Source of the DNA: Pyropia yezoensis
Lineage: Eukaryota; Rhodophyta; Bangiophyceae; Bangiales; Bangiaceae
Length of the DNA: 64,000 bases
Reading direction: 5' to 3'
Assembly (NCBI GenBank): GCA_009829735.1
Contig: CM020618.1
Coordinates: forward strand, 40,477,030 to 40,541,029
Made by a program: the position numbers and the translations under genes. The notes beneath the pieces are model-generated. The model had not been told where the DNA came from and searched no databases. It was given only the letters and a program-made list of their open reading frames with translations. Shown here piece after piece: positions 1,249-63,581 of this stretch; the stretch's first letter is position 1; every line of letters starts with the position of its first letter.

Positions 1249-1388
1249 GTACGTTCACGCCGCGAGGGTGGGTCTCGACCGGTGGTGGCGGTCGCCACAC
1301 CCTCGACGAAGAGGGCGGACACGTCATCCTCGGACTCGTCGTCTTCCCCTTCGTCCTCGGACTCCGACGCCAAGTCGGCGGGAAAAGA

Positions 1389-4082: not shown

Positions 4083-4144
4083 GTGGACACCTGGGGTCTA
4101 GTAAACTGTACCAGACCCTGAGGACCAGGTACTACTGCCAGTCC

Positions 4145-5693: not shown

Positions 5694-7844
5694 CTACGTC
5701 TCCGACGGGGTAGAGGACTCCGAGATGGAATAAGACAACTCGTCTTCCGACACGGAGGGAGACCGCCGCGAGTGACGGCGACGACGGCGAGGAGGCGAGT
5801 ATGATAGGCTTGCTCGACGCTTGCCGCGCCCAAGTGGGGCCGACTGGGGCACAAGCGACCCGATACGAGCCAACTCGGTCGTCATGAACCCCGCTAGCGA
5901 CTCGCAACTTGCGGTCGCCACAACAGCACAAACGCGCTCCTCAAGTTGAGGAGTCTCGGAAACTTGGAGTGTTGCAGCCGACGCGGCCAACCAAAAAATG
6001 GTGCGCACCAACGTGGTGATCATCATCTCGGATGTCAACGGCGTGGCCGGCAGTACCAACTTGGGGTAGACCGTGAGTAGGGTGGCCCCCACGTTAGGGG
6101 ACACCGGAGTGGACGACTCAACGGCAACGCCTATCAGGATGTCCCCGTGCGGCTGGAATGGGACAGGAGGAAGCGGAGGGGCTCGCCGCGTAGGCGGAGC
6201 CCGAGAGTAACTGCGACCCCTACTCGGGGCCTCCGCAGTGGGTTGAGCCATGTAGTCGTCGTGGGAGACCACGGCGTCCACGATTGCCTTGTCCGGGGGA
6301 GGGGCAGTGTGGCGTTCCAACCCCGGGGCGTCCGGGTAGTTCCCGATGCCCAACCCCTCCTTGAGCACCACGCGGCCGTCGTAAAGTCTACGGCCGACCC
6401 AGACGAACTGGCGCAGTGTGCCATCGTCCTTGGGCCCGCGGGAAGATCGGCGCAACTTGTGCTCGGTGCCCTCCCACTCGATGAGGTTGTGGAGACGCAG
6501 CATCTCCTCGAGTAGAGTGAGCTGTCCCGATGGGCACCCCTCAGAAACTAGATGAGGGGTGAGCTGCTCCAAACCTTGGAGAAGCCGGGGGGATAGATTC
6601 CAGAACATCCCCCGCCGCTGGGCACAACACACCCAGGTCGACATGACCTCAAGGAGCCACTGAGTTGCAAACATGGCGAACACAAGGTGGTCCGGGCTTG
6701 CCGTCAACATGACGGAGCCGAAGAGGTCGATCAACCGTGGTGGTAGCGCCTGGAACCCATTAGGAACCTCGACTTGAGGCCACCACTCGGGCTTCTTGGT
6801 GTAGTATTGCTCCTTGCTTGCAGGCGACAGCTGCGGAAGCTCGAGTTGAGACGAGGTCACCAAGTAGGGACCTCGCCGGTAGTCTTTCTCCATCCGCACG
6901 TCGAAGTGATGACTGTGCGGATCGAAGTCGCGTAGGTACTGGGGGCGAGTTGCCACCGCGTCCCAAGTGAAGGCCGGCACGTCGCCGGTGCCCGCGATAG
7001 TACCCCCGATGGCCAACAAGTTCGTGGCCCGCTGCACGTCGTCGACCTCGTCCTCATCCAAGAAGGCGAACTGGTCCGTCTTGAAGCTTGCAGGAAACCA
7101 GACCCTACGGGTGAACTCCTCCCGTAGGCGGTCCCATACGCGACTTATCGCTGTGCCAAGTCGGCCACAGCGGATAACCTTCAACCCCTCCTCGTACAGG
7201 GGCCAAGGGGGGTAGAACCACCTCCCCAACGCCTCCTGTGGAACAATGGGGCCTACCTCCAGGATAGATCCCGCCGCAAACCCAAAGCCGGGTGACGCGG
7301 GCCTCCCATCCCCCGGAGCGACCGTGAAGCCACCGCCGGAAGTCCCGGCGGGCGCTACATAGTAAGACATGTCCTCGATTCGCTCATCCAGGGAGTCAGT
7401 CTCCAACCCGGGGGTCACCATGGCTCTCCCCAAGTTAGGGAGAGAAGACTCGATTTCAGCCGTAAGAGACCCGCCTCGAGTTGAGGGGGGCTCCGATCGC
7501 GGGTAGACGGGTGGCTTCCCCAGCGTGGGGCGGCCCAGGGTTAGGTGAAGAAGATGTGTTGGTGGTGGTAAAGTGAGCACCGATAAGAGCAAGCTGCCAA
7601 GTGGGCAAGCTTGAGGAGAGGGGCGGTCGACGTAACCGCCTCCAAGTCCGCGTGACGTACCGGGGGGACAGCCAGTCGCGCCCCCAACGCCGCAATCTGC
7701 GTTTTTATGCCCCATCGCAGGGCCGACCGGGTCGGTCGGAACTGAGGAGAGGGGAGTGTGGCAGTATTGACCCCACGTAGGGGGGCAACACGCGCCATGG
7801 AAGAGGCGGCAGGCAGCTGGCCTGACCCGTTCTTCCCCCTGCAT
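5694..7844 (-). CDS. Antisense ORF of gypsy family A (A1 copy)
   Basis: A frame of about 716 residues lies between the end of pol and the 3' LTR on the strand opposite to gag-pol. It is not a mirror of pol, because the region codes for nothing on the plus strand. The first in-frame ATG lies inside the 3' LTR; a later start is possible. The protein has a Pro/Ser/Thr-rich N-terminus, a central folded-looking part with many Trp/Phe/Leu (for example GRWFYPPWPLYEEGL, PEWWPQVEVP, FGSV near 6,720), and a basic Arg/Ser tail (SYSPPRRRRRHSRRS) that could be a nuclear or RNA-binding tail. No known family is recognised. The same ORF is in A2 and A3, and a distant relative sits at the same position in element B. 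Confidence 0.8.
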   Translation of the reverse strand: MQGEERVRPAACRLFHGACCPPTWGQYCHTPLSSVPTDPVGPAMGHKNADCGVGGATGCPPGTSRGLGGGYVDRPSPQACPLGSLLLSVLTLPPPTHLLHLTLGRPTLGKPPVYPRSEPPSTRGGSLTAEIESSLPNLGRAMVTPGLETDSLDERIEDMSYYVAPAGTSGGGFTVAPGDGRPASPGFGFAAGSILEVGPIVPQEALGRWFYPPWPLYEEGLKVIRCGRLGTAISRVWDRLREEFTRRVWFPASFKTDQFAFLDEDEVDDVQRATNLLAIGGTIAGTGDVPAFTWDAVATRPQYLRDFDPHSHHFDVRMEKDYRRGPYLVTSSQLELPQLSPASKEQYYTKKPEWWPQVEVPNGFQALPPRLIDLFGSVMLTASPDHLVFAMFATQWLLEVMSTWVCCAQRRGMFWNLSPRLLQGLEQLTPHLVSEGCPSGQLTLLEEMLRLHNLIEWEGTEHKLRRSSRGPKDDGTLRQFVWVGRRLYDGRVVLKEGLGIGNYPDAPGLERHTAPPPDKAIVDAVVSHDDYMAQPTAEAPSRGRSYSRAPPTRRAPPLPPVPFQPHGDILIGVAVESSTPVSPNVGATLLTVYPKLVLPATPLTSEMMITTLVRTIFWLAASAATLQVSETPQLEERVCAVVATASCESLAGFMTTELARIGSLVPQSAPLGRGKRRASLSYSPPRRRRRHSRRSPSVSEDELSYSISESSTPSET

Positions 7845-8225
7845 TTGGGTCCCTATTCCCTAAGTTAAGGATAGTTAGCTTAGAAGTAAATCCAACGTGG
7901 ATTTGAGGGTTTTCTGCATTTTATCGTCATAAATTTTCGTGTGGCCCGGTGGGAAGGTGCTGGGGTGGGAGATTTCGAGTGGCGAGATTCTGAGGCGACC
8001 CTGCGGGGATAAGGGGAGGGACAGCGGGGCTTGGCCTCGCTTCCCCGTCCCAGCCAAGAAATTGTTGGATCACACACCATGTTCTTGTTTTGTCGTGGAG
8101 GGTTTGCCCCACAACAGGGACGGAGTGTGTGCAACTTGCACTTCTTCCGGTTCCCCCGACACGGGAGGCAGCCCTTGCGCACTGCTCCAGTTTGGGTGCA
8201 GTGTGTGCGAGTGGTTTTTGCCACA
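7757..8225 (+). repeat. 3' LTR of A1
   Basis: This 469-bp repeat starts TGTGGCAGTATTGACC and ends TTTTTGCCACA. It has the same length as the two LTRs of A2 (43,455-43,923 and 63,113-63,581) and aligns with them end to end. Confidence 0.93.
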
Positions 8226-43454: not shown

Positions 43455-43923
43455 TGTGGCAGTATTGACCCCCAGGTAGGGGGGCAACACGTGCCATGCA
43501 AGGGGCGGCAGGCCACTAGCCTGATCCGTTCCTCCCCCTGCATTTGGGTCCATATTCCCTAAGTTTGGGATAGTTAGCTTAGTAGTAAATCCAACTTGGA
43601 TTTGAGGGTTTTCTGCATTTATCGTCTTGAATTTTCGTGTGGCCCGGTGGGCAGGTGCTGGGGTGGGAGATTCTGAGTGGCGAGATTCTGAGGGGACCCT
43701 GGGGGGATAAGGGGAGGGACAGCGGGGCTTGGCCCTGCGTCCCCGTCCCGACCAAGAAGCTGTTGGACCACACACCATCCTCTTGTTCGTCAGTGGGGGG
43801 TTTGCCCCACAACAGGGACAGAGTGTGTGCGACTTGCACTTCTTCCGGTTCCCCCGACACGGGAGGCAGCCCTTGTACACCGCCCCAACTTGGGTGTCGT
43901 GTGTGTAAGAGGTTTTTGCAACA
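43455..43923 (+). repeat. 5' LTR of A2
   Basis: 469 bp, starting TGTGGCAGTATTGACC and ending TTTTTGCAACA. It matches 63,113-63,581 at all but 5 sites. Confidence 0.96.
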
Positions 43924-43944: not shown

Positions 43945-44042
43945 AGAGGTAAACTTTACCTCCGGGTACACCCGGGTGTAGGGGGCCCTCTGTCTCAAAG
44001 GAACGGTGGACTTGGACCGTGTCATACGGATCGTCAGCCAAC

Positions 44043-45988
44043 ATGGCTAGTTCGGACCCCCCGTCGTCCGGGGAGTACACGGGTGACGCACGTACTTCAG
44101 TGCCTTTGAATACTGGTGAGGCACAGGTGGGTTTACCTGGGGTCGCAGAGGGACTGGAGGTCCCTCAAGCCAGCAGTACTGGAAGTGCGGGCGGGCAACA
44201 GGCCACCCCGACTCAGTCGGGAGTTCGCTCGGGTGACACTTCTGATGTGGGTGGGCCGAAGTCTGGCCACCGTGTGGTATACTCAACGGGAACGTCCCAA
44301 GGGGTGAGGACTGTCCCCGCGGGTTCCACTCGGGTTGGAGCCAACTTTGGCTTGGAGCCGTCGCCAACTAGGCTTTCGGGGGACGGCGGACCTCCGTTGG
44401 TCGGCGATGGGCTCGCGCCCATGCCCCGGTTGAGACCCCTGAGGAACGTGGTTACCCCTCAGGTGGACTTCCGGAGGCGGACCGAGACTCAACTGGAGTC
44501 GTCAATCCACTCCTCGCGGAAACTGTCCGTCGGGAGGCGACCAATGTGTTGCGGCAGACTTTGCCGGACCTGGTGGTCACGATGACGAATACTATTCTGA
44601 ATCAGATTGTGGCGAGTTTGCCAGATGGCCTTCATGTCCGGACCGGATCGGGGCTTTCGAGCCCGCAGGCGCAGGGGGAATCCCTCCTCACGCCTATCTC
44701 GGGTCGCCCCGAACAGGGGGCGACACCTGTGACTCCCAACGAGGGAGCCACACCATACTCGGTGGGGCGTACGCCCTTCATGGGGGAGTTCCCCCCGGAA
44801 ACGCCGGCGACTACACCAAGCGCGCCGCGCCAGACCATGGGCACTGAGGGTGAACTTGCCCCAGTGCCACAGCGGCTGTTCCCTCAACGTGAGGTGCCGC
44901 CCAAGATCCAGGTAGCCAACCCGGTCTACCAGAGGATCTTTGATTGTGAGACCTACGCCCTCCACAATAGGTCGGTGGCGTATGGTCCTGACCAGGCCCA
45001 AGCCATGGGCCGTGCCAAGAAGAATGCACTTCACTCTTTTGGGCACAAAGCGGAGTGGGATGGAACTCCCACCCTCCGTGTCTTTGAGTTCCTACGTCGT
45101 TTCACAAAAGCCTGTGACGACAACGCCATAAGTGAAGGCATGGCTTTCTACATGCTACAGGAGTTTACGAAGGGAGACCTGCGGACAGAACTTATGTCCG
45201 TCATGCCCAGCTCCTCAAGTGGAGGCGCTGGTGAGATGACGTCCTATTTTGAGCTCGTCAACTGGTTGTTGAGAGCCATGGTTGATGAAGCGGCGCTGGC
45301 TTCTCAAGTCGAGGAGTTTACGCAAGCCCATCAGGAAGAGGCGGAGGACGAGTTGTCCTTTGCGGAGCGAGTCCGTAAGCTCAACAATCTTTGTGGGTTT
45401 CTTCATTCACAAGCTGTGGTGAAGAGTCGGTTTGTGGAGGGACTCCATTGGTCAGTCCGGATGGAGACCCGGCTGCATAACGCTGCTCGGGCGACCCTGG
45501 CCGAGTTGGCTAGGTTCGCCTACCGCAGAGGCGAGGCCTACCGCAAGTTGCGGGAGGAACAACGCCAGGAGCGCCAGGCCGAGTTGGCCAAGGAGCGGGA
45601 GGACGCGCGCGAGGCCAGAAAGTTGAGAGAGGCACGCCGAATCCGCAAGGAGAGGGTGGTAGCTGCCGTGGGAACTTCCCAGGGTACCTCTTCGTCTTCC
45701 CAAGTCGGGAAGACCCCTCCCGGAACAGACAATCGGTGTTGGAACTGCAACTCCGATGGACACTGGGCTTATGATTGCCCCAAGTTGAGTAAACGCATCC
45801 AACAACTTGTTAGGAATGCGAGTAAGAAGTCGGCTACGAATGAAGTACGTTCACGCCGCGAGGGTGGACCTCGACCGGTGGTGGCGGTCGCCACACCCTC
45901 GGCGAAGGGGGCGCACACGTCGTCCTCGGACTCGTCGTCTTCCCCTTCGTCCTCAGATTCGGACGCCAAGTCGGCGGGAAACGAATGA
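44043..45988 (+). other. A2 gag region
   Basis: From MASSDPPSSGEYTGDA an N-terminal Pro/Ser/Gly-rich region leads to a capsid-like helical part (about 44,900-45,430), an Arg/Glu-rich helix (REEQRQERQAELAKERE) and the zinc knuckle CWNCNSDGHWAYDCP (near 45,742-45,780), with a Ser/Asp-rich end. It is homologous to the A1 gag. Confidence 0.85.
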
Positions 45989-46143
45989 CCGTTGGAGCTG
46001 GTCGTCCGAAGCTCACAACGGCAGCCTCGGCCAAGTAGGTCAAGAGGACGAATCAACCGTGCCGGATACTGCGGCGATCTAAGGGAGTCCGCCCACCTCG
46101 GGTAGGACTCCCCAAGAACGTAAACCCACGTCGGGTCATCGCG

Positions 46144-49100
46144 GTGCTGACGGGTGAGAACTTCCAGGTGGCTGGACGGGTGCAACTTGCCCCCGGCCGC
46201 GCCTGTTGTGCCCGTATCGTACTTGATACCGGGTCAGGAGCCTCCTTGATACGCAAGTCGCGATTACCAAAGGAGATGAAGCTCCAACGCTGGAAGTCTA
46301 AAGCTGACCATCTGATCGATATCAATGGTGGGGTACTTCCCATCGTTGGTGCCGTGACCCTACCAACTAGGTTGGGGACCCATGAGGTCGACGTGACCTA
46401 TGGTGTAGTTGAGAATATATCGGTACCCCTGCTTCTGGGTACCCCTTATGTCGTAACACAAGTGCCTTTGATTTGTGGCCCTGAGTACTGGGTCAAGTTG
46501 ATGAATGGGGAGACTATCCCCATCCTTGGTATGGGAAAGTCCGTGGCTCCTGTGACAGTCTCACAGTCGAAGCCTGTTTGCTCTGTGAGGGAAGGGTTTA
46601 CTGCTACCCTGCGTTTAGCCCGTAAAGTCACGTTGCCCCCCAACTCGGTGGCGCACGTTGATGTTGTAACTGATTATACGGGGAACGGGTTGGTGCACCC
46701 TTACCCCCATCTTGCTCGCAAGCACCAAGTGCATGTTGCCCTTGGCACGATGGACTCCAAAGCCGGAGTCTCGCGGAGGATCCAGGTGATGAACCTGAGC
46801 TCGTCGCCCAAGTACTTCAAGTCGGGAGCCAAGTTCGGCTATATCGACCAACACGAGGGACCGGTAGTAGCGGTCACCCTCAACGCGGGCGCAAGTAGCG
46901 ACCCGAAGTCCGGAAAGGAGAAGCATCAAGCCAAGTCGGCCGCCTCTCCTCGGCCCCATGTGAACATGGAGGGTGCTCCACCCAGGTTGAGGGTTCAAGT
47001 TGAACGCCTCTTGGACCAATATCACAGGTTGTGGGATGGTCAATTGGGACTCATGAGAGCCACCCAACACCGGATCGAGTTGAAGCCCGGTGCACCCCCT
47101 ATACGCCAACAACCGTATAGGGGAGGACCCCGTTCAAGGGCCCTTGTTAAGGAGCAAGTTGCTCGCATGGAGGCCCTCGATGTGATCGAGGCCAGTAACG
47201 CCGAGTGGGCGAGTCCGGTGGTTATCGTCCCCAAAGTTGATGGGACCCCCCGGTTCTGTATCGACTACCGTAAGCTCAACGAGAGCACGGTGAAGGACAG
47301 TTATCCCCTACCTAGGATGGACGACTGTCTGGACTCTCTGGGGGAGGCAAACGTGTTCTCTACCCTGGACTGTAACGCGGGGTACTGGCAAATTCCCATT
47401 GCCCCGGAGGACAGGCATAAAACTACCTTTACCTGTCACTGTGGTACCTACCAGTGCAAGCGCCTACCGTTTGGACCGTGTAACGCGCCGGCAACTTTCC
47501 AGCGCGCTATGGACATGATTCTGGCCGGAGTACGGTGGCAGATCTGTCTCGTGTACCTAGACGATATCATTGTGTTCTCCCGAAGTCCGGAGGAACACAT
47601 TGGCCATCTTGGCCAGGTGTCCAAGCTACTTGCTGACGCCGGTGTGTCACTGAAGGCGAGTAAGTGCCACCTCTTCACTCAAGAGGTGGAATACTTGGGA
47701 CATGTTGTCCGTCCGGGGCGTTTCAGTGTCAACGAGAAGAACTTGAGGGCCATCCGTAAGGCTCAGTACCCCCGGACCCACACCCAGATGAGGAGCTTCC
47801 TCGGGATGTGTAACGTGCACCGACGTTTCACCAAGGGCTTCGCCAAGGTGGCGAAGCCGTTGAATGAGCTAGTTAGCTCAACGCTACCGAAGAACCTGCC
47901 TCCCCCAAGTCGGGTGGAGCAAGAATCCTTTGAGACTCTTCGGGACCTTCTGCTGAAGCCCCCCATCTTGGCTATTCCCAGGTTGGGAAGCCACTACATC
48001 CTGGATGTGGACGCTAGCTACGACCAACGTGGTTGTGTGTTGCTTCAGCAGCAGCCGGACAAGGAGTACTTGCCGGTAGACACTTCAGCAAGGGGCTGAA
48101 CTCGGCCGAGAAGAACTACGGAGTCACCGAGTTGGAAGGACTCCCAGTGGTGTGGGCGGTGACGTCACTTCGTCACTACCTAGGGGGTGAGAAGTTCCTC
48201 ATCCGCTGTGACCACCGCGCGTTGCAGTTCATCTTTAAGACGGATTGTACGAACACTCGTCTCAACCGGTGGAGGGTGCGACTGGCACCCTTCAACTTCG
48301 ATATTGAGTACCGACCTGGCAGGCAACATGCCCTTGCCGACGGCCTTTCTCGGGTACCTACCGCGGGGCTGGACACTAACCCAGTCGATGAGGACATCCC
48401 CATCGTGGGGGTAGTCACGCGCTCGGGTCAGGCGTTGAACCCCGAGGCGCCAGGGAACAAAAAGTACTTGCCCCTGTCCCTGGACGAGGTGGTGAACGCC
48501 CAGGCCGAGGATCCCTTCTGCAAGTCGCAGAGGGATACACTGGACACAGTTGCGGAGACGCGGTTCTTTCTGGCAGACGATGGCCTCCTCATGAGGAGGG
48601 GGGTATTCCAGGGGACCGAACAACTTGTCGTCCCCGCATCTCTCAAGGACATTTTCCTTGAGAGGGAGCATAACGCTCCCACAGGTGGACACCTGGGGTC
48701 TAATAAACTGTACCAGACCCTGAGGACCAGGTACTACTGGCCGTCCATGGTGGTGGACATCTACAGTTGGGTGGCTGCTTGCACAAGTTGTGCGCAGAAC
48801 CGCCTGATGGAACGGCGGCCTACTACGGCTATGCTATTGTTCCCGGCCAAGGAGCCCTTCGCCGCGTTGGCGATGGTCATCCTTGGGCCACTGCCAGTGA
48901 CCGAGGAGGGCAACCAGTACCTCCTGATTATCTGTGACCGCTTCACGAAACTTACGCGAGCGATCCCACTGGCAGAGATCACGGCCATGTCGGTCGTGTC
49001 AGCCTTCCTAGATCACTGGGTTGCCGCGTATGGCATTCCGGATAGTACACTATCGGACAATGGACCGCAATTTGCGTCTGTACTGTTTCAGGGAGTGCTG

Positions 49101-49967
49101 GATATGTTGGGGGTTAAGGCAAACTATGCCACCCCCTACCACCCACAAAATCATTGGCAGGTGGAGCGCTTCAACAAAACTATTGTTCGGCAGCTGCGCC
49201 ACTATGTGAGTGAGCATGTGAAAACGTGGGACCAATACATTTCTATTCTTACCACTGCCTACAATTCGCAGGTTCACTCATCTACCGGGGAAGAACCCCT
49301 CGCTTTTGTGACCCCCCGTCGCGTGCGGTCTATTGCTGTGCGGCGGCCGCTCCCAACTAGGGAGGATGGTGGCAGTACGCCTACTCCTACTGAGAGTAAG
49401 GCTGAGTTCGCTGCTAGGCTTGAAAACCTCATCCCTAAAGTCAGGGCTGAGATGGACAAAGCACAAAAGCGCTACAAGCGTACCTTTGACAAAAAGGTGC
49501 GCAATGCTAAGCATGTCCCCGAGCAGGGTGAATGGGTGCAGGTACACTCACACACCCCAACTGGGGGTACGCTGGTATTCCAGACGAAGGGGCCGTACCA
49601 GGTCCTTCGTACTGATGGGCGGCGCTTCACCATCGAAAGTGACGATGGGGTCCGCACAGTGAACGGACAGGACGTGGTCAAAGTTGCACCACCGCCTGCA
49701 GGCGACCCAGCTTGGGCGCGTGCGTTGGAAGCGTGGCGCCTCCCCTCGCTGCCTGCGGCCAAACAGGGCCCGCAGGAGTACGTGTTCGATAAGTATATCG
49801 ACCACGGCCGGGATGAGGACACTGACCGCCTCATGTTGAGGGTGCGTTGGTTTGGCTACAAAGCCAAGAATGATACGTGGGAGTATGTGGAGGACCTTCC
49901 CGCTGAGAAGGTCCGGGCATACTGTGCCCGGAACGAGATAGACCCTAACAGCCCTCCCTCAATGTGA
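46144..49967 (+). other. A2 pol: protease, RT, RNase H, integrase, chromodomain
   Basis: Domain order: aspartic protease (DTGSGAS near 46,228), RT (FCIDYRKLN near 47,254; YLDD near 47,557), RT connection, RNase H (YILDVDASYDQ near 48,000; LIRCDHRALQF), integrase zinc finger (HNAPTGGHLG ... CTSCAQNR), DDE core, and the chromodomain-like end containing LRVRWFGYKAKNDTWEYVE (49,840-49,890). Gypsy order with a chromodomain makes it a chromovirus. It is nearly whole as a fossil. Confidence 0.93.
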
Positions 49968-50078: not shown

Positions 50079-51942
50079 CTAGGCATGCATGCAAGACTCT
50101 CCAACCCCACGGCCTTCGCCCTCACGTGGAGGTGAGCGGCGAGACCCACGGCGATAACGCTCCCCACCAGTCAGCGGGGCCGGTGGCTCCAAGTCAGAAC
50201 CGCCGCGCCCCTCACGGTCGCGCAAGTGGCGACGACCGCGGCTGCCCTTCTGATTAGTCTTGCGCGCAAGTTGGCGACGCGGACGCCGGACCGACTCCGA
50301 CTCTGACGGAGTCGAGGACTCCGAGACGGAGTAAGACAGCTCGTCTTCCGAAACGGAGGGAGAGCGCCGCGAGTGTCGGCGACGACGGCGAGGAGGCGAG
50401 TATGCCCGGCTCGCGCGACGTTTGCCACGCCCAAGTGGGGCTGGCTGGGGCATAATAGCCCCAATGCGAGCCAACTCGGCCGTCATAAACTCCGCCACCG
50501 ACTCGCAACTCGCGGTCGCCACTGCAGTACGAACGCGCTCCTCAAGTTGAGGAGTCTCGGAAGTTTGAAGGGTTGCGGTCGACGCGGCCAACCAGGATAT
50601 GGTGCGCACCAACGTGGTGATCATCATCTCTGAGGTTAGAGGCGTGGGCGGTAGCACCAACTTGGGGTATACCGTCAGGAGGGTGGCCCCCAAGTTGGGG
50701 GACACCGGGGTGGACGACTCAACGGCCACGCTAATCGGGATGTCCCCGTGCGGCTGGTAGGGGACAGGAGGAAGCGGAGGGGCACGCCGAGGTGGCGGGA
50801 CCCGGGTGTAACTGCGACCCCGACTTGGGGCCCCCGCAGTGGGTTGAGTCATATGGTCATCATATGAGGGCACGGCCATAACTATGGCCTTGTCCGGGGG
50901 TGGCTCAGTGTGGCGATCCACTTCCGGGGCATACGGGTAGTCCCCGATGCCCAACCCCTCTCGTAGGACCACACGGCCGTCGTGAAGTTCAGGAGCGACC
51001 CACACGAGCTGGCGAAGTGCGCCATCGTCCTTGGGCCCACGAGTGGGGCGGCGCAACTTGTGCTCAATGCTCTCCCACTCGATAAACTTGTGGAGGCGGA
51101 GCATCTCCTCAAGTAGAGTGAGTTGTCCTGATGAGCACCCCTCAGCAACTAGCTGAGGGGTGAGCTGTTCCAAACCTTGGATAAGCCGGAGGGGGAGATG
51201 CCAGAGCATCCCCCGCCGCTGAACACAAGACACCCAGGTCGACATGACCTCGAGGAGCCACTGGGTGGCCAACATGGCCCACACCAGGTGATCAGGGCCA
51301 GCCGTCAACATGACGGCGCCGAAGTGGTCAAGCAACCGTGGCAGCAACGCCGGGAACCCGTAGGGGACCTCAACTTGAGGCCACCACTCGGGCTTCTTCG
51401 GATAGTACTGCTCCTTACTGGCAGCAGACTGCTGAGGGAACTCAAGTTGAGCCGAGGTCACCAAGTAGGGACCTCGCCGGAAGTCCTTCTCCATCCGCAC
51501 ATCAAAGTGATGAGTGTGCGTATCGGCCTCGTGAAGGTACGGGGGGCGAGTTGCCACCGCGTCCCAAGTAAAGGTCGGCAAGTCGCCGGGACCCGAGATA
51601 GTTCCCCCGCGGTCCACCATGGCCTTGGCCCGCTGTATGTCTTCGACCTCCTCGTCGTCCAGGAAGGCAAACTGGTCCGTCCTGAAGCCGGCAGGGAACC
51701 CGACCCTACGGGGATAATTCTCCCGTAGGCGGTCCCATACCCGACTCATCGCTGCGCCAAGTCGGCCACAGCGAAGAACAGTCAACCCCTCCTCATATAG
51801 AGGCCAAGCGGGGTAAAACCACCGCCCCAAGGCCTCACGCGGGACAACTTGTCCCGCCTCCGGGGGAGATCCCGCCGTCAACCCAAAGCCGGGTGACGCG
51901 GGAGTCCCATCCCCCGGGGCGATCGCGGAGCCCCCGCCGGAG
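50079..51942 (-). CDS. Antisense ORF of family A (A2 copy, split by B)
   Basis: Same protein as the antisense ORF of A1: GRWFYPAWPLYEEGL, TFTWDAVATRPPYL, PEWWPQVEVPYGFPALLPRL, FGAVMLTAGPDHLVWAML and a basic tail (PPRRRRRHSRRSPS). It lies between the end of pol (49,967) and the 3' LTR, opposite to gag-pol, with only about 110 bp between the two convergent stops. B is inserted at its right end; the rest of the coding-like sequence continues beyond B, from 62,695 into the 3' LTR. Confidence 0.82.
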
Positions 51943-52305
51943 TGTAGCACAATAGGTATCCGTCGCACGTCCACTCTCAGGGAACACTCACCAAGGGGGA
52001 TCGGCACCAACGTCACCGGGAGGCCAAGGTTGCTGTCCTTGGAGCGCAAGCCACGGGACCAAGATGGGAGCCCAAATGGGAGGGGTTTGTTGTTCTGCCT
52101 TGGCCGGCGGTGGATTCGCCGCCGGCCCCCTCGTTATAAACCCTCGGAGACACTACTAACTACCCTCCACCCCAAGATGCGAGTCCCTCTGGTCATACGT
52201 AACTCATAGATACCGTGACCAGTATGGACTCTCAAATTGAAAGTCACGGGTTAGAAGTAGCCCCCCTAACATTAGGGTCACAATACGGCCAACCATATTG
52301 CTACA
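51943..52305 (-). repeat. 3' LTR of B
   Basis: 363 bp with TGTAGCA and TGCTACA ends, almost identical to 62,327-62,689. On its inner side (52,306-52,318) the minus strand has a polypurine tract, AAGGGGGGGATA, the start point for second-strand synthesis. Confidence 0.95.
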
Positions 52306-52574
52306 TATCCCCCCCTTAGATTCGGCCCGTCCTCGGGTCGAGTTGCATTCGGGTTTCCGAATGTAAGTGGGTCGCGTGACCGTTTACCAGTCGGGTGGGG
52401 CTTTGCGCCCTGTCGCGACAGACACCCCTTTTCGAGGTTGTCTGAGGGGGGTGCCCCCCTTTGTGTGGTACACACACGATCCGTTTTCCGGACCGTTAAT
52501 TTCCCGATGCGGGTTTCTGTTCACGACCCCCCTTTCCGAGGGGTGGTGCAAGCGGATCCGCCACCAGGTGCCTG

Positions 52575-55265
52575 GTGGTAGGGGAGACCTCTCGTGAGGC
52601 GATTGAGGGGGGGGCGGGGGTTGCCCGCGTTGCGTGGGGGCGGTTGGGGGTGACCCCCCTGGTTACCCCGTGTGGGGGGGGGAAGGGCGTGGCTCCGGTC
52701 CAGGTGCCTGGGTGGAGCGCCCTCGTAGCTCGGCTGGCGCGGGTCGTCCCGCGCTGCCGTATCGCTCGTGCTGATCTGTGTGGTTATAAGCACGGGTACC
52801 CGCGCTTCCCTGGCTCGTCCGTGCGAGCGTTCCTCGTACCGGGTCGAGCCGGCCTCGGCTTTTCTGCACGGGGCGCCCCTGCTACCCCGGTTATCATGTC
52901 GGACCCCCAGGTACCCGGGGGCGAGGACGACCTCCTGCTTGAGGAGGAGGAAGAGGTGATGGTGGACGACGTTCCCGTCTCTGCCACCGCCGCCGAGTGC
53001 TTCCTGGCGAGCTCGTCGGAAGACGAGGGCGGCCGGGTGACCGTTCGTGTGGCCCCGGACGGCGCGCCGGGCGGGTTGTCGTCCGTGTGTAGCGGCACGA
53101 CGGCTCCGTCGGGTGGCGGGCAACCGCGTGTCGCGGCTGCCTCTGCCCCTACTCCTCCGGCGGCCCGGATGGCTTCTGTCGCCGGTGCCGGCGCGGTTCT
53201 ACCCCAAGACGGCGTCGCTGGCGTGTCGGAGGGTCGTGGCGGCACCCCGGCCGGGACGGCGGGTCAAGACGGCGCGGGTGCCCGCCCGGTTGATGCACCC
53301 GCGGCGGCGGATAGCGGGTCTACCCGTGCTGCCCTCGTGGTACCCACGTCGGGCCCGGGTGGCGGCGATGCTTTGCCCGCGGTGCCGCGGACTCTCGGTG
53401 GTCAAGAAGTATCTACCCCGATGGCTGTTGACTCCGGGAGCTACTCCGGGCGGGTGCCCGCCCTTCTTCTTTCTCCTCGGCCTCGTGCACCTCCGGCGCC
53501 GGCCCGGCTGCCGGTAGGGCGTCCCCCGGCGCCCCCGATTCTTCCTGGTCCTGCCCGGGTTGCCCCGTTGGGTGGCGGCGTCGCCTTGGCGGCGGGTCAA
53601 CCCGCCCTGTCGATGTCCGACTTGGTGGCTCGGGTTCGAGGCATGACTGTGCAAGGGTCAATGGAGTCCGCTGGGCGGATGCGGGTGGATTTCCACCAGC
53701 CGCGTCTCCCTGGAGAGACCTCCCGGCGCGTCAAGGTGGACCCGAGTTGGGAGCGGGAGTTGGTGCGGCTGGTCAACCAGCCGAACGCGGTGCGAGTGGA
53801 GCATCATTGGATCCTGAGCCAGCCGGACGACCGGCATGCACAGCTCTGGCGCACCCGGATTGGGCGGGGTGAGGTCTACCTCGACTCCGCCTTCGGGGTA
53901 TGCGACTTGATTGTCCCCGCGTTGCCGCGGGACGTCGACTACCCGGCTAGTGCTCGGGGGATTGCGGCGGCGGCGGAGCCGGTGGCGTTTGGGGAGACGG
54001 TGGGCGACACCGGCCGGTATCCCGGCTTTGAGTATTTCCCGGGGGTATCCCCGTACCTGACGTTGACGGCTCCCTACCCGCCTATGGCGGGGCTGAAGTC
54101 AGCGTCGAGCTGGCGACGCAACCATGGTGTCATGGCGGATGCGTTCCGCACCGATATAACGTGCGCGTTGCAGACCGGTAACGGTCGCGCGCCGGTGTAC
54201 ACTGCCGTGCGCCCGCCTCTGTGGCAGGAGGGGTGGGAACCCGCCCCTGCTTTCCGGTTTGACACCGGCTCCTGCCTCCGATACTTCGGGAGTGTGTTGG
54301 CCTCCCGGCCGGTCCACCCGCTGCAGGGTACCTTCACCCTTGAGGTTACCCTCGGGCAGGCTTCCTCCTTCTTGCTGTCCGTCCGCCGGCAGGGGCGCCT
54401 GTTTCATCTTCCGACGGGTGTCCGTCGGCACATCGCGCAGTTGGGCGTGGACATGATAGCTGCCAAGACCGGGTTGGCCCGGGAGTTCGAGGGTCTGCTG
54501 GCTGTTCACGATGCCGTGAACTGGGCTGGGGTGTTGGCCCTTCCCCCGTACCGGGACCCGCAGGCTGGGGCTTCCCCCTTGCCTCGTCACTCGTTGCGTA
54601 TCCGGCGTACTCAGCCGGGTGAGCCCAATTGCCATGGGTGGGCGTCCACCGAGGCTGTTGCTGACCTGGGTATTCCCATGGTTATTCATGACCCTCTTCA
54701 GGTCCTTGCCCCGTGGTTCGGTAACCCGATACCGGCGGCGGTTGGCCGTCGTCCCCGAGAGTGGGGCTCTGCGGGTGGGGAGCGTGAGGTGTCCCGTCGT
54801 CGGGCGGAGTCCCGCCGAGGTTACGGTGGAGCCCCTTCGGTGGGGTCCTACCGGGCCTCATATCAGGCGCCACCGGCTCCGGTGGTGGCCGTGTCGGCTC
54901 CTGTGGCTCCTCTGGCTGCGCCAGTGTCACCTCCCGCCCCTGTCCTGCATGACGGGGGTCCCCGCCTCTGGTATGAGGGCGTTGACGCCCTTGTTGCCCG
55001 CGCAATGCGGGAGGGTCTCTCTGTTAGCTGGGGGGATATCCCCCCAGGTGCTGCGCTGGTTGGGTCAGCACGTTGCTTCGGTGGTGTGCTTGACCGCCTC
55101 CAGACAGCTCTGGAGGACGTGGAGGCTGGCCGAAGCACTCTCGTCCAGCTCTGCACCGAGGTAACTCGGGTGATTGACCGTCGTGAGATTGCCGACCGGT
55201 GGAGCACGGAGGTATACGCGCTTACGCGTGAGTGGCCTCCCTCGGGCAGTGGGTCTACCCACTGA
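52575..55265 (+). CDS. Antisense ORF of gypsy element B
   Basis: A frame of 896 residues lies opposite to gag-pol of B, between the end of pol and the 3' LTR. An in-frame ATG at 52,896 (MSDPQVPGGEDDLLLEEEEE) is a likely alternative start. The protein has an acidic N-terminus, a Pro/Ala/Gly-rich region (about 200-340), a central folded-looking domain of about 330 residues from MSDLVARVRGMTVQG, and a C-terminal Pro/Ala and Arg-rich part. Core features PLWQEGWEPAPAF, FGSVLASRPVH, LLSVRRQGRLFHLP and LLAVHDAVNWAG align in order and spacing with the antisense ORF of family A. No known family is recognised. Being intact in a young element suggests it is maintained. Confidence 0.82.
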   Translation: MVGETSREAIEGGAGVARVAWGRLGVTPLVTPCGGGKGVAPVQVPGWSALVARLARVVPRCRIARADLCGYKHGYPRFPGSSVRAFLVPGRAGLGFSARGAPATPVIMSDPQVPGGEDDLLLEEEEEVMVDDVPVSATAAECFLASSSEDEGGRVTVRVAPDGAPGGLSSVCSGTTAPSGGGQPRVAAASAPTPPAARMASVAGAGAVLPQDGVAGVSEGRGGTPAGTAGQDGAGARPVDAPAAADSGSTRAALVVPTSGPGGGDALPAVPRTLGGQEVSTPMAVDSGSYSGRVPALLLSPRPRAPPAPARLPVGRPPAPPILPGPARVAPLGGGVALAAGQPALSMSDLVARVRGMTVQGSMESAGRMRVDFHQPRLPGETSRRVKVDPSWERELVRLVNQPNAVRVEHHWILSQPDDRHAQLWRTRIGRGEVYLDSAFGVCDLIVPALPRDVDYPASARGIAAAAEPVAFGETVGDTGRYPGFEYFPGVSPYLTLTAPYPPMAGLKSASSWRRNHGVMADAFRTDITCALQTGNGRAPVYTAVRPPLWQEGWEPAPAFRFDTGSCLRYFGSVLASRPVHPLQGTFTLEVTLGQASSFLLSVRRQGRLFHLPTGVRRHIAQLGVDMIAAKTGLAREFEGLLAVHDAVNWAGVLALPPYRDPQAGASPLPRHSLRIRRTQPGEPNCHGWASTEAVADLGIPMVIHDPLQVLAPWFGNPIPAAVGRRPREWGSAGGEREVSRRRAESRRGYGGAPSVGSYRASYQAPPAPVVAVSAPVAPLAAPVSPPAPVLHDGGPRLWYEGVDALVARAMREGLSVSWGDIPPGAALVGSARCFGGVLDRLQTALEDVEAGRSTLVQLCTEVTRVIDRREIADRWSTEVYALTREWPPSGSGSTH

Positions 55266-55743: not shown

Positions 55744-57063
55744 TTACAGTAGGCGTCGTCGGCTCATGTAAGGCATGAGGAGTTGGCGGGGTATATTCGC
55801 CGCCTGTTCCCAGGTGGGTGAGTCGTATCCGACCCACATAACCTTGACGTACCAGGGTCCTGGTAGGTCCGGGTCGGTGTGTCCGACCACGCTCTCTACT
55901 TGGTATGGAATCCCATCCGGTCCCACCGGGTCATCTGACCGGTGGGTTGTAAGAGCTTCATGTAGCAACCCAGCCGGTACCGGCTGAGGCTGTTCCGGCT
56001 TCGGAGCAGGTGTGACATCATTGAGGTTGATGCGTTGTATCTCCGTATCGGAGTGCAGTATGACAGAGTGATCATCTCTGTGTAAGATCTGGTACGGTCC
56101 CTTGACCGGTTGCATAAGCTTGTTCCCTCGGAACTTCTGGTGTCTGATGTAGACCCAGTCACCTGTCATCAGGGTTGCGTTGCGCGCCCGTAGCCGGGCG
56201 TCAAAGTTCTTCTTGTATCGAAGATGAGTTCGGTCAAGGGCACCCTTGAGCTTAGGAATCATCCACGACAGCTTGGCCAACCAAGCTAAGTGGATCCGTT
56301 CGGCCGGTCGGCCCTTCGGTATATCATACCGAGTGCATCTGCCTGGAGGCAGCGTCAGGTTACCGACGCCTAGTGGCATGACCCACTCCAGTGGCGCGAT
56401 GTTCGTGCTCCGATGTGGCCTGGCATTGTATGCCAGGGTGAGTACGGACAGAAGCCTGTCCCAAGTGTTCGTGTGCTCGGCCACGTAGCATTGTAGCATC
56501 TTAACGATGGTGCGGTTGAACCGCTCCACTTTCCCGTTGGACTGCGGGTGGTAGTCGGATGCCCGACGGCGTTCGATACCGAACATGCCCAGGACCTCAG
56601 TGCAGAATGCTGACGTAAGGTTTGCTCCGTTGTCGGAGAGGAGTTGCTTCATTACTCCGTAAGCACTGATCCAGTGGTCAACCACTGCGTTCATGATGGT
56701 GTAGGCCGTATCGTCCGGGATTGCTGCTGCCCGTGACAGCTTAGTAAAGCGGTCCGACATGACCAGGATGTACCTGTTTCCTTCTTCCGTTACCGGAAGT
56801 GGCCCAAGTATGTCGATAGCGACTTGCTCGTTGGGCCCATCGGGTGGGAATAGCTTCATGGCAGACGCCTGCCTATGTAGACTCATGTGGTTACGTGCAC
56901 AGGGGTGGCATCCCCTGACGTGGTCGACCACGTCGACGGCCATTGCTGGCCAGTAGAAGAACCTTCGCATTGCTGCGAACATACGTGAACCCCCCGGGTG
57001 TCCGGCTGTGGGGTTCTCGTGTTCTCGTTCCATGACGGCTTGCCGTAAGGACACGGGAACCAC
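55744..57063 (-). other. Element B integrase
   Basis: HHCC finger (HENPTAGHPGGSRMF ... CARNH), DDE core (VAIDILGPLPVTEEG; LLSDNGANLTSAFC; HPQSNGKVERFNRTI) and a C-terminal chromodomain-like segment (YVKVMWVGYDSPTWEQA near 55,830). It is clearly a different family from A. Confidence 0.9.
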
Positions 57064-57225
57064 GACTTGATGTCGTCCGTCGGCGGGTGCCCGCCGGTAT
57101 ATGAGTCCGTCTTCATTCTCGGAGAAGATGCCGGCCGTACCGGCCAGGAGGTTAGCGCGATGGCGTCTACAGTCGTCGTCATTGGCTTGTGCCTCGCGGA
57201 AGTCCGCGAGAGTCAGTGGGCATGC

Positions 57226-59910
57226 TCAGTGTGCCATGGTATGGTCAACCATACCTTGGGTGGCGTCACCCACCATGCAGACCGGTACCACCGGGATGTC
57301 CTTGCCCACCGGGCGGGTATCCCCGCTTGGGGTATTGAGTCGCGACAACGCGTCTCCGAGGTGGTGGGTTGACCCAGCCTTATACACGGTGCGGTAGTCG
57401 TGCTCGGCCATCTTCAGCCTCCATCGGGCTAGCCTCCCATGGCTATCGGAATCCTTGTCACCAAGGTTGAGGAGCCATCGTAGGGGTTCGTGGTCGGACC
57501 TCACGATGAACCTGGAGCCCTCCAGGTATGGGCGGAGCAGTTGCACTGCCCATATAACCCCGAGGCACTCACGCTCGGTGGCACTATAGTTACGCTCAGC
57601 CGGGTTGAGTGTCCGGCCGAAGTACCCTACCGGACGTAGGTCCGGGATAACGTTTTCGGAACCGATCAACGTCTCTCCCTGTAACAGGGTGCACCCCACT
57701 TGTGTATCACACGCATCGACATCGATGACGAAGGTACCCCGTCTGTGCGGTAACGCAAGGACGGGTGGGGATAGTAGGGCTCGCTTCAGCGACTCGAATG
57801 CCTCCTCTTCACTGGGCGAAGGGGGTTGGAGTACCTTGGGCAAGGTACTGCTCGTAAGAACCGTTAACGGTTTAGCTATCCGAGCGAAGTCCTTGACGAA
57901 CCGTCGGTATACGTTGCACATTCCCAGGAAGCTCTTGAGCTGCATCTGGGTGTTAGGGAACCGGGCATCCCGGAGTGCTCGGGTATTGGCTTCGAGTACC
58001 CCTAGTTTACCAGGGGTTATCTGGTGGCCTAGATACTCGACCGTCTGTTGGAAGAAGGCGCACTGCTTCAGACGCAGGGTTACCCCGGCGTTCCGCAAGA
58101 GGGTGAGTACCTCGTCAACATGTTGCACATGGTCATCCATGTTACGCGAGAAGACGATGACGTCATCGAGGTACACTAGGCAGTTACGCCACTTCACCCC
58201 CGACAGTATAATGTCGATAGCCCGCTGGAATGTAGCGGGGGCGTTGGACAATCCGAAGGGCATCCTTAGGAACTCGTACACTCCACTGTGACAGACGAAC
58301 GCCGTCTTGGGGATATCCTCGTCCGCCACTGGGATGTGCCAGTATCCGGCATTGCAATCGATGGTGGTAAACACCGTAGCTTCCCCCAGGGAGTCGATGC
58401 ATTCATCCATCCTTGGTAAAGGGTATGAGTCTTTCTTGGTAACCAAGTTGAGGCGTCGATAATCGATGCAAAACCGAGGGGTTTGATCCTTCTTCGGTAC
58501 GATAACGACTGGGGCACCCCACTCTGACATCGAAGGTCGTATCACCTTCGCTTCGCTCATTCTCTTCACTTCTCCATCAACGATCTCTCGTTGCATAGGT
58601 CCCGCTCGGTGCGGTTGTGACCGGGCGGGGCGGGCGCCTGGTATTAGGTCTATACGATGTTGGGTTGCCCCAATGGTACCCAAGGCCCCGCCTGTCCACA
58701 TGACGTCATGCTTTCTTAGCATCCGTCGTACCCCTTCGGCTACCGAAGGGGGAAGGTGGTCGAGGTCAGCCTCGGCGAGGGCCTTCAGTGCTTCTTGGTC
58801 CTTTGGCGGCATGTCCGCCGAATGCGCCGATGGGTTAGGCTTCCCGTCATCGGGTTGCTGTCGCTCGGTGGTCTCGGCGACCGCTAGCACCTCAAGTGGT
58901 TCCACTTGACCCTCCTTGCCAGGGGTAAGGATATCTCCTTCGTAGAGCTCGGCAATCCCGAGGATAGTTCCCTTCGGGAGGGTGACTGCCTTACGGCGAT
59001 AGTTCGCCATCACTAGGAGGGACGACCCTCCTGCTGGGAGGTCTATGAGACCGTTGGCCATGGTCAACCCATGGCGCTTGTACGTCCGCAGGTTGGACTG
59101 GACTCTGCAGATGCCTGCGAGGTCGCAGTTAACCGGGAGGACTGTCTCCGACAACGGCTCAAAGCGAGTTCGCTTGGCCAACCGAAGTGTCTTCGGCTCG
59201 ACGCTTGCGTACACCTCAGCCACGCTAACGTGGCTCCCTTGTAGCGTCAGGTCCCTGACGATAGCCGTATGTCCTCGCTTCGTCCCGTCGGCTTCTTGAA
59301 GCTCGACGGTACTCCGGCCTGGCCGGATTGCATCCACATGAACGTTGATGAAGGTGCACCCCAGTATGCAGGGCACCGATAGGGTCTCACACACCAGGAA
59401 GTCGACTTCCGTGGTGAGTTCCCCGATGGTAACCCGCAGCGACATCGCTGCGGTCTTACGAATGAGGCGACCATTCGCGTCCTTGATGGTGGGTCCCCGA
59501 GTCACCCTGACTCGGAGAAGCCACTTGTCCGGGAGGGTATCCTTCCGGATAAGGTTGGGTCCAGCCCCTGTATCTAGTACAGGGTAGTACGATCGTGTCG
59601 ACTGGGGGTCAACCCCCAGTGTGGCTGATACCTTGAAGTTCTCCAAGGTAAACAGCACATGTCCTACACCGATATCCGGTGTTCCTCGGGCATCCTGGCC
59701 AGGGCCCTTGGCTGGTTCCATGTGACGGGGCTTCCCGTCCTCTCCTCCCAACCTTGGTGGTTTGTCATCAATCCCCTGACGCCGTGTCGTCGGGGCCGGA
59801 AGGTGTACCCGGGGATTGATGCGGCGTCGGCTCAACCGCGCTCGCCGTGGGGCTTTCCCCGCGGTACTCCGGGGTGGCTTACTTGGGTTACCCCAGCGCC
59901 CCCCTGTCAT
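57226..59910 (-). other. Element B pol: protease, RT, RNase H
   Basis: Aspartic protease (VLDTGAGPNLIRK near 59,570), RT (FCIDYRRLNLVTKKDSYPLP near 58,440; YLDDVIVF near 58,165), connection (SFLGMCNVYRRFVKDF), RNase H (FVIDVDACDTQVG near 57,710; FIVRSDHEPLRW). Gypsy type. Confidence 0.92.
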
Positions 59911-59918
59911 CCTTCCTC

Positions 59919-62107
59919 TTACTCGTTTCCCGCCCTTGGTAGGGTGCTGTCCGCCGGGACATCCGGCTGAGGAGGTGCCTCCTCGACGGCCAGTACTCCA
60001 CCTGGAGCTGGCTGCCTACCCGGTGCGGGTCCGGGTGCTCTGGCGGTATACCCCCCGGTGGATGCCTTGCGTTGCGCCGCTGCCCGCCGAGACTCCTCGG
60101 GGATGAGTGGGCAGGAAGACACCCAGTGCTGGGGATCCCCACACAACATACATCCGGACGTGCCGGTCCCCCCTTGAGTTCGCATCGGGGTAGCCCCGTA
60201 GCTGCGGTTGCCTCCCTCGGGCGCCCGAGTGCCTGCTCCCTGGTAGGCCTTGGGTCCTTGGGTCAACCGGAACATGGACTCCCCCAACCGGTTGGGTCGG
60301 CCCGCAATCTGCGGAGGTGCCTCCGTGCGCACCGCCCATGTGGGCAAGGGTTGGTGAGGGTTACCCGTCACCGGGGAAAACCCCGTAGTCCGTACGTACG
60401 GGACGCGACGTCCCGTGCCCTCGCTGACCTGGAACTGGGTCCCCGCCGGAGCGATGTACGCTACCGTACCTTGCTCATCAATCACCGGCATAGCCGGTAA
60501 CAGCAGGTGGCCCTGCTGGTCAACCAGTGGTTCCTCCTCACCGGTAGGGGGATGTTCGGTCGCCACCAGTACTGGTGCGGCCTTACGTTCCATCTTGTCT
60601 TGCCTCGGTACCGGGGTAATATTGAGCTTGCTCCCCTCACCCTTGGGCTTTGAGGCAAGAGCACACTCCGGGTGAAGCACCCGGTAGGCGTCCCCCAGGG
60701 ACTTGCACATATGCATCAGTCGACTGAAGTTCGTCCGTGCCGTGTTGGCGCCCCGTGCGGATATCCGCACGTAGTTGGGTAATCCTGCGAACAGGACGGC
60801 CCGTAGCTCCCCTTCTCCGAGGAGCTTCCCCAGCTCGTAGTCGAGCTCTTGAATCCGTCGTCCGAACATCTCCTCATCCTCCCAGCTCTGGGCGGTGGCA
60901 GTGCGCAGGGCCCGGTAGTGGTCCTCGCATTTGTCCTCACTGAGGTAACTGCTCAGCAGCTCCTTGAGAATCCCACGGTAATCCATGGGGGTGGCCGCAA
61001 CCCTCATTCCCGGCATCGGGGATGCCTGGCGAAGGATGCCTCGCACCCGTTCATCAACAAAGAACGGAGGATCTCCAGTGCCAGCCCCTCGTTAACGAGG
61101 GCCTTGTCCGCGGCTGCCTTGAAGCTAGTCAAGAAGCCGATGACTGCCAACGGGCGTCCGTTCGGCCCCCCGAACATAGGGACTCCCTTCATAAGGGTCT
61201 GCATAGAGCGGATCGCCCGATGTGACGTATTACGCATCGATTCCGATACGGTAGTAGAGCGGTCCTCCAAACGATAACGTTCCGGAGTAAGAACCGACCG
61301 GAAGACCTCGTTGACGATCTCCGTGTCAGCGTCCTGGATATCCAGTCGCTTAGCCAGTTGATGAGCAAACTCATCGGACTCCATCCGCTTCAGTAGGCTC
61401 GCAGTTACCTGCGCGGTCATAGCTTCCACCACTGAAGATGGTACTTCAGGCGTCGGCACCTCGGGAACCCGAGTTGCCTGGCCTCCTTCGTCGTGGGGAT
61501 ACTGTGAGAGGGTACCCCCTCCCCCAATAACCGACTCTCCACCGGCGTAAGTATCCGCCGGGTCGTGTCCGCGGAGTCCGCTTCGGGTGCTCCGAGCGTA
61601 TCGCTCCGTGTGACTCCGTTCCAACTCTGCCGACGAGTCGGATCCATACCCCATTGTGTCCGGGGGCTGTCCGGGAGTTGCTGCGCCGGGGTCGACCCCG
61701 GTGGACTCCGAAAGTAGTCCGGCCGGTCCAAACCGTACCGGTGTGGGAGGAACACGACGGGGTCCCGTCGTGTGGCGTGTTGACATCAACACTGCCATTG
61801 CGTCCTCCGTCCGATCCTGGCGATTGTCGAGTCCGGAAAACCGGGCCTCGATGCAGGCCAATGATGCCATCAGGGAATCCCCTGGTGAAGGCGGCGGCGG
61901 AGTGAGGTCGGTCGATGACAGTTGAGGCGGGCCCCCGCCTCCTGCCGTCCGAGCCGTGCCAAACGTCGATCCGGCACCGGAAAGCATTGGCGTCTCAATG
62001 TTGTCGATCGGGTTCCCGATCCCGGTTCCCGTAGTCACCTCCGGAGTCGGCGTCGGCGCCGATCCGTCATCTTGCACGTTCCCCGTCTCTCGGGTAGACA
62101 TAGTCAC
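59919..62107 (-). other. Element B gag region
   Basis: It starts near 62,107 with a Pro/Ser/Thr-rich N-terminus. A capsid-like part follows (VPMFGGPNGRPLAVIGFLTS near 61,140; RALRTATAQSWEDEEMFGRR near 60,880), then a Pro/Gly-rich linker and a zinc knuckle CMLCGDPQHWVSSCP (near 60,100-60,145). It is a fossil with about one break. Confidence 0.85.
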
Positions 62108-62306
62108 AATCAGTCAACCGACGTAACAATCACCACGAATAAGAGAGCGAGGGGGTAGATTGGGGAGAGTAACAGTAGATAACAGTCAAAGGTAAAAACT
62201 CAACACAATCGATCAGGTCGCAACACCACGAGTACAAGAAAAGGACCGGATCCCTATCCGTGTGCCAGGGCCGAAGACGGCGTCACCACTAAGGTGACGG
62301 AAACCC

Positions 62307-62326: not shown

Positions 62327-62689
62327 TGTAGCACAATAGGTATCCGTCGCACGTCCACTCTCAGGGAACACTCACCAAGGGGGATCGGCACCAACGTCAC
62401 CGGGAGGCCAAGGTTGCTGTCCTTGGAGCGCAAGCCACGGGACCAAGATGGGAGCCCAAATGGGAGGGGTTTGTTGTTCTGCCTTGGCCGGCGGTGGATT
62501 CGCCGCCGGCCCCCTCGTTATAAACCCTCGGAGACACTACTAACTACCCTCCACCCCAAGATGCAAGTCCCTCTGGTCATACGTAACTCATAGATACCGT
62601 GACCAGTACGGATTCTCAAATTGAAAGTCACGGGTTAGAAGTAGCCCCCCTAACATTAGGGTCACAATACGGCCAACCATATTGCTACA
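62327..62689 (-). repeat. 5' LTR of B
   Basis: 363 bp, almost identical to 51,943-52,305 and ending next to the second copy of CGGAG. Confidence 0.95.
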
Positions 62690-63112: not shown

Positions 63113-63581
63113 TGTGGCAGTATTGACCCCCAGGTAGGGGGGCAACACGTGCCATGCAAGGGGCGGCAGGCCACTAGCCTGATCCGTTCCTCCCCCTGCA
63201 TTTGGGTCCATATTCCCTAAGTTTGGGATAGTTAGCTTAGTAGTAAATCCAACTTGGATTTGAGGGTTTTCTGCATTTATCGTCTTGAATTTTCGTGTGG
63301 CCCGGTGGGCAGGTGCTGGGGTGGGAGATTCTGAGTGGCGAGATTCTGAGGGGACCCTGGGGGGATAAGGGGAGGGACAGTGGGGCTTGGCCCTGCGTCC
63401 CCGTCCCGACCAAGAAACTGTTGGACCACACACCATCCTCTTGTTTGTCAGTGGGGGGTTTGCCCCACAACAGGGACAGAGTGTGTGCGACTTGCACTTC
63501 TTCCGGTTCCCCCGACACGGGAGGCAGCCCTTGTACACCGCCCCAACTTGGGTGTCGTGTGTGTAAGTGGTTTTTGCTACA
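63113..63581 (+). repeat. 3' LTR of A2
   Basis: 469 bp ending TTTTTGCTACA, followed by the second copy of ATGGC. It differs from the 5' LTR at five sites. Confidence 0.96.

Follow-up and report, generated by a model that had tools for sequence, protein, structure and literature searches.

An Antisense Protein Gene Behind pol in a Clade of Ty3/Gypsy Retrotransposons from the Red Alga Pyropia yezoensis

Introduction

Open reading frames (ORFs) that run antisense to gag and pol, in the interval between pol and the 3′ long terminal repeat (LTR), are known from a number of retrotransposons, Grande, RIRE2, Retand, PvRetro13, and Boty among them (PMC7264820). Here, we describe a gene with this placement in the red alga Pyropia yezoensis, carried by two families of Ty3/gypsy elements, A and B, that lie in a window of 64,000 nucleotides (assembly GCA_009829735.1, contig CM020618.1, positions 40,477,030 to 40,541,029; "the window" hereafter means this whole stretch). 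The window holds two copies of family A (A1 and A2) and one of family B, and the genome searched for their relatives amounts to 107 Mb.

The closest described systems are the antisense ORFs of the plant Retand lineage (Retand, Grande gene23, and RIRE2), which are likewise borne by Ty3/gypsy elements between pol and the 3′ LTR, are kept in many copies and across the whole lineage and mostly harbor a TRP28 domain, PF04195 (PMC11963269; PMC7264820). The Grande antisense protein is nuclear and has an antisense promoter of its own (PMC7264820), and the TRP28-bearing Retand antisense protein is predicted to bind DNA (PMC11963269). Outside plants, the gene brtn of the Boty-like elements of Botrytis and Sclerotinia is reported to lie antisense behind pol (PMC7264820) and is likened to the red-algal case by arrangement alone. 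A further precedent, useful as a model only, is HBZ of human T-cell leukemia virus type 1, described as antisense-encoded, expressed from the 3′ LTR side, and nuclear (PMC11963269). By arrangement, the red-algal gene is thus of a known kind; its protein family, judged by sequence comparison, appears new, and the titles and abstract openings that literature searches listed, among open-licence papers, include no earlier account of such ORFs in retrotransposons of red algae.

Results

The original prediction had described, between pol and the 3′ LTR of both families, a long ORF opposite to gag-pol, and this description was confirmed for A1, A2, and B (table 1). The gene is convergent with pol and does not overlap it, the two stop codons being separated by 47–478 nucleotides in A1, A2, B, and two further families, C and D, introduced below; it occupies the pol–3′ LTR interval of a Ty3/gypsy clade that counts high-copy members. 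From their sequences, the antisense proteins of A and B are homologous. BLASTP aligns A2 with B at E=4e-7 (24/90 identical residues) and A1 with B at E=2e-6 (39/189), in the same region as the core alignment initially made by eye, and the motif string first spotted in this way corresponds to the best-conserved portion of the A–B alignment. The comparison of profiles that had been proposed as a check also proved significant, since the two family alignments match under hhalign at E=1.6e-5 over 217 columns (23% identity, probability 79%), and the trimmed core profiles at E=4e-6 over 208 columns. Against 150 local shuffles, the Smith–Waterman scores reach z=7.0 for A1–B and 8.1 for A2–B, no shuffle out of 150 attaining the observed score, when z is at most 1.6 in 10 control pairs opposing A2 or B to three long GC-rich ORFs of the window and to two gags.

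The antisense ORF is also a protein gene under purifying selection in the tested pairs of families A, B, and D. Between A1 and A2, its frame displays a synonymous divergence (dS) of 0.42 and a nonsynonymous divergence (dN) of 0.117, hence a dN/dS of 0.28, with an excess of changes at third codon positions (78, 45, and 143 changes at positions 1, 2, and 3); the same ratio is 0.30 and 0.28 in the two pol frames and 0.29 in gag. Counts over all six frames were made for six pairs, namely A1–A2, B with four of six fetched copies, and D with a second copy, D2. In these counts, dN/dS in the antisense frame is 0.28 for A, 0.41, 0.35, 0.53, and 0.47 for B, and 0.18 for D, which is not near 1, the value that would have spoken against a conserved protein. 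This frame is free of stops, save one stop in one pair, when the other frames contain 7–38 stop-bearing codons and show ratios of 0.96–2.45, with the exception of frame −1 (0.33–0.62, with 14–27 stop-bearing codons), which shares its third positions with the antisense frame. Moreover, 55 of the 65 A copies scored are free of stops over the portion matched, and pooled pN/pS is 0.19 over 406 pairs of 29 A copies that had been picked by protein score. Together, the A–B homology and the purifying selection support the proposal that the protein is old, conserved, and encoded by the retroelements.

Where the prediction failed is in regarding the carriers as two unrelated gypsy families. A and B are divergent relatives: their reverse transcriptases (RTs) are 56–63% identical and fall in the same clade, their pol products align at 42% identity over 664 amino acids and at 36% over 492, and the same 20 nucleotides, TTGGTGGAGCAGCAGGGGAC, follow the 5′ LTR of A2 (43924–43945) and of B (62306–62326), at the expected primer-binding site. 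Since both elements belong to one clade, the simplest reading of the shared antisense protein would be descent from a common ancestor.

Two other abundant families of the genome, whose LTRs were not delimited, have a long antisense ORF behind pol, of 995 amino acids in family C (locus L047) and of 608 in family D (L048). By sequence similarity, at least four lineages of the clade carry homologous genes in this position. The C and D proteins match each other by BLASTP (26% over 340 amino acids, E=4e-10) and by core profiles (4.5e-19). They connect to family A through A2–D (BLASTP E=2.7e-7, shuffle z=9.6), A2–C (BLASTP E=7e-5), and A1–C (0.001), and through core profiles (A–D E=2.7e-4; A–C 1.8e-3). 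Family B, for its part, is joined to the group via A and via proteins of Pyropia vietnamensis described below, and not directly to C or D, as far as sequence similarity tells. In a tree of 18 RT rows, two of which (L005 and L059) represent one copy, families A–D are separated from an E/F clade with 100% support and C and D are joined at 93%, with the placement of A versus B at 64%; a tree of integrase pieces agrees, the same groupings receiving supports of 100, 99, and 69. Seven loci of the D clade were read behind pol, three of which display a long antisense ORF (L048, L053, and L055), and no antisense homologue occurs at any of the six E/F-clade loci read behind pol (L045, L046, and L056–L059). 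The antisense protein diverges much faster than the RT, with 26% against 78% identity between C and D.

None of the antisense proteins matches a Pfam family above its curated cut-off, which supports the proposal of a possibly new protein family. Unlike the proteins of the flowering-plant Retand lineage, the red-algal ones give no TRP28 match, whether in 18 members searched at E≤10 or in C, D, and D2 searched at E≤0.1; this agrees with the earlier remark that nothing visibly links them to the Grande/RIRE2 type, a very remote relation being conceivable. They also differ from HBZ, with which no sequence relation is claimed, in giving no Pfam bZIP match. Structure prediction returned no informative fold match: the mean predicted local distance difference test (pLDDT) score is 34.5 for A2 (13 sequences) and 44.5 for a D-type protein of P. 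vietnamensis (18 sequences), the latter with moderately confident helices at about residues 300–365 and 485–570. Arginine-rich stretches are seen by eye in the antisense proteins of A–D.

Relatives of these proteins were found in three protein searches, which scored only the 8000 candidates sharing most words. Among the scored candidates, the A protein has one relative, 96% identical, and the B protein four, of which three are P. vietnamensis gene models at 33–50% identity. C and D have twelve: the P. vietnamensis proteins MMPV_005735 (a cluster of 74 sequences) and MMPV_008440 at 47–48%, two from JGI, one from EukProt, and seven that possibly include P. yezoensis itself. These relatives, in P. 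vietnamensis and elsewhere, are known as proteins only.

Regarding the carriers in the window, A2 (43455–63581) and B (51943–62689) are both bounded by paired LTRs and 5-bp target duplications, as expected of Ty3/gypsy LTR retrotransposons (table 1). The Pfam domains RVT_1, RT_RNaseH, Integrase_H2C2, and rve are found above cut-off and in order in A2 and B, where gag precedes protease, RT, RNase H, and integrase, the protease match lying below its Pfam cut-off; RT, RNase H, and integrase matches are present in A1 as well. A chromodomain at the integrase end, the mark of the chromovirus branch of gypsy, scores 17.8 and 18.5 bits in A, below the Pfam cut-off of 25.1, and has no match in B at E≤0.1. 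B sits inside the antisense ORF of A2, in the orientation opposite to A2, and the open antisense frame of A2 extends to 52133, within the LTR of B. A1 ends at 8225, its 5′ LTR lying beyond the window edge. The A1 start codon was placed by comparison with a predicted protein from another source, P0004, which starts there, and that of B is a guess, as the first methionine ahead of an acidic stretch.

Table 1. Features of elements A1, A2, and B, in window coordinates
Feature	Position	Strand	Remark
A1 gag frame, partial	178..1044	+	aligned to A2 gag, 254/288 identical
A1 pol, two overlapping frames 1230-4082 and 3914-5494 (RT, RNase H, integrase)	1230..5494	+	
A1 antisense ORF	5694..7859	-	721-amino-acid open frame; likely start codon 7421; first codons inside 3′ LTR
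A1 conserved core aligned to B (FGSV to W-E-G)	6465..6725	-	coordinates computed from BLASTP alignment
A1 3′ LTR	7757..8225	+	matched to A2 LTRs
A2 5′ LTR	43455..43923	+	98.9% identity to 63113-63581; target duplication ATGGC
A2 gag with CCHC knuckle	44372..45988	+	ORF list, Pfam
A2 pol, two overlapping frames 46039-48099 and 48018-49967	46039..49967	+	ORF list, Pfam
A2 antisense ORF	50079..51942	-	broken at 51942 by element B; remaining 5′ part resumes at 62690
A2 conserved core aligned to B	51066..51335	-	coordinates computed from alignment
A2 3′ LTR	63113..63581	+	
B 3′ LTR	51943..52305	-	99.2% identity to 62327-62689; element B on - strand
B antisense ORF	52500..55265	+	921-amino-acid open frame; likely start codon 52896
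B conserved core aligned to A	54273..54533	+	coordinates computed from alignment
B pol, two frames 57226-60015 and 55744-57225 (protease-like, RT, RNase H, integrase)	55744..60015	-	
B gag region, two overlapping frames 61004-62113 and 59919-61091	59919..62113	-	CCHC knuckle by eye
B 5′ LTR	62327..62689	-	target duplication CGGAG flanks B on both sides

Three further observations concern these elements and their surroundings. A1 and A2 (54–7340 versus 44650–51941) are 91–95% identical over 654–4853, then 83–86% from about 4854, and this drop, which covers the integrase end and the antisense ORF, looks like a mosaic of two subfamilies. Past A2, an antisense-strand frame at 63682–63999 significantly matches the antisense profile (34 bits) and adjoins a stretch 79% identical to A1 7062–7260; it is the remnant of a further A-like element that extends beyond the window. 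Directly after A1, 8991–12035 on the − strand is a degraded gypsy-like element, with integrase-like and RT-like frames distantly matching A and B.

Discussion

Because families A–D carry the antisense gene and the E/F loci are devoid of it, this distribution makes it quite probable that the gene was present in the ancestor of the A–D clade and was inherited along with pol. The explanation that we favor, and which we consider fairly probable, is that of a protein-coding accessory gene of ancestral origin, kept by selection and working on behalf of the element, its exact biochemical role being outside the claim.

As to how such a gene could act, its promoter might lie within the 3′ LTR or beside it, so that it would be transcribed separately from gag-pol; in the product, the conserved core would be followed by an arginine-rich stretch and then by a C-terminal part that is probably helical. 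This product could enter the nucleus, bind nucleic acid or chromatin partners, and serve in trans as an accessory factor that regulates how the element is transcribed, how its RNA is handled, or how it escapes silencing. A nuclear accessory role is suggested because of the arginine-rich stretches of A–D, the precedents of Grande, Retand, and HBZ, and the lack of similarity to gag. Taken as a whole, and built on analogy, this mechanism is a tentative proposal.

Several observations weigh against the picture of an ancestral accessory gene with a nuclear role. Some pairs show the homology only faintly or not at all when compared directly, with B–D at 0.007 both by BLASTP and, off-register, by core profiles, B–C at 0.12 by core profiles, and no BLASTP match at E≤1 for A1–D and B–C; shuffle z is low for A1–D (2.2), A2–C (1.0), and A1–C (2.7), and a C+D profile finds A2 (2.6e-7), A1 only at 0.018, and not B. 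In the D clade, two loci (L052 and L060) show antisense remnants only, and no D-type antisense homologue of their own was recognised in the stretches fetched at two others (L054 and L061), which hold a B-type insertion or a B LTR behind pol. The choice by protein score of the 29 A copies behind the pooled pN/pS favors conserved ones and lowers pN. At least one stop interrupts the frame in 44 of the 49 scored B copies, leaving 5 without, and the stops of both interrupted B copies that were read fall at codons 475 and 823, that is, after the core start and in the C-terminal part, so that many B copies may lack the full antisense protein. Finally, an RS domain is not a trait of the family, a nuclear role finds no backing in fold or domain, and we infer both transcript and product from sequence, the function being argued by analogy only.

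The genome also holds at least 150 B-type RTs at 99% identity or more, and the 48 other best B antisense ORFs are only 85–92% identical to that of the window. The antisense part of family B may be undergoing exchange or decay.

Concerning the origin of the gene, it is possible, though somewhat unlikely, that the protein is a module shared with other mobile elements or host genes, either captured by the gypsy clade or later passed on from it, which would be compatible with an accessory gene acting for the element. Of the 119 candidates scored in a genome search with the C core, 65 matched, comprising six C copies, many of D type, and some that are neither, and a search with one of the latter delineated two groups, G and H, of five places each (H being 31–32% identical to G). 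G matches C at 26% over 290 amino acids (E=6e-11), H matches D at 27% over 273 (E=1e-10), and both are recovered by a C+D profile, with E-values (for 100,000 sequences) of 4e-14 for G and 1e-8 for H. Within 12.6 kb round one G copy, the pol pieces of A–F have no match. Three of the five H copies have, at 5.0–5.9 kb and convergent each time, an ORF of a Ulp1 (Peptidase_C48) family that occupies 11 places at 83–100% identity; no H match is listed near the eight others. Nevertheless, G and H may themselves be relatives of gypsy elements that are decayed or not autonomous; the stretches read were short, spanning 1.3–12.6 kb, with only one G copy read widely, and pol was sought by similarity to A–F only. 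Alongside, we note that G/H homologues occur at low-copy loci where no gypsy pol was recognised (L062, L063, L065, L069, and L070; C1:30.71 Mb, C2:6.12 Mb, and C2:26.36 Mb), that one G copy has an AAA_11 helicase ORF about 2.5 kb away, and that the ORF convergent with H is 1215 amino acids long with a Ulp1 protease domain. More speculatively, and with a low likelihood in our view, one protein family could serve two classes of selfish elements of red algae, a clade of gypsy elements and an element that bears a Ulp1 protease, its gene being convergent with the main coding strand in both. It would then be a portable factor acting in trans, such as one that counters host silencing, and would have moved between classes or been a source of host genes.

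We find it improbable that the product is, instead of a nuclear regulator, a structural component of the particle, whether a second capsid-like, a matrix-like, or an envelope-like protein. Such a role would suit the position of the gene, env-like genes lying in the same place behind pol, as well as the predicted helical C-terminal part, but the gene is antisense to gag-pol and its product bears no similarity to the A or B gags (z at most 1.6 for A2 and B, and 2.5 for D versus the A gag), nor any match to a Pfam gag or env family, the fold searches being uninformative in either direction. An antisense RNA regulator, for which the transcript would matter and the reading frame would be incidental, has parallels in the antisense non-coding transcripts mentioned for micropia, TART, and intracisternal A-particle elements (PMC7264820), but is very hard to reconcile with a dN/dS of 0.18–0.53 confined to the only open frame and with the third-position excess. 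As for chance, long spurious frames are indeed numerous in the window and the antisense ORFs are rich in guanine and cytosine (GC; 61–67%), but shuffle and ORF controls, the one-frame pattern of selection, and the recurrence in four families make accidental similarity scarcely credible.

The accessory-gene reading bears on a question that is broader than red algae, since the role of the antisense genes known behind pol in plant gypsy and Boty-like fungal elements is itself an open question. A separate red-algal family, located at the same place in four lineages and under pol-like constraint in A, would make it harder to dismiss such genes as accidental, and would suggest more than one origin for a convergent accessory gene. 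The homologues in groups G and H further raise the possibility of a factor moving between classes of mobile elements. With carriers that are numerous and young (at least 150 B-type RTs at 99% identity or more) and that reside in a cultivated edible seaweed, the question is a testable one.

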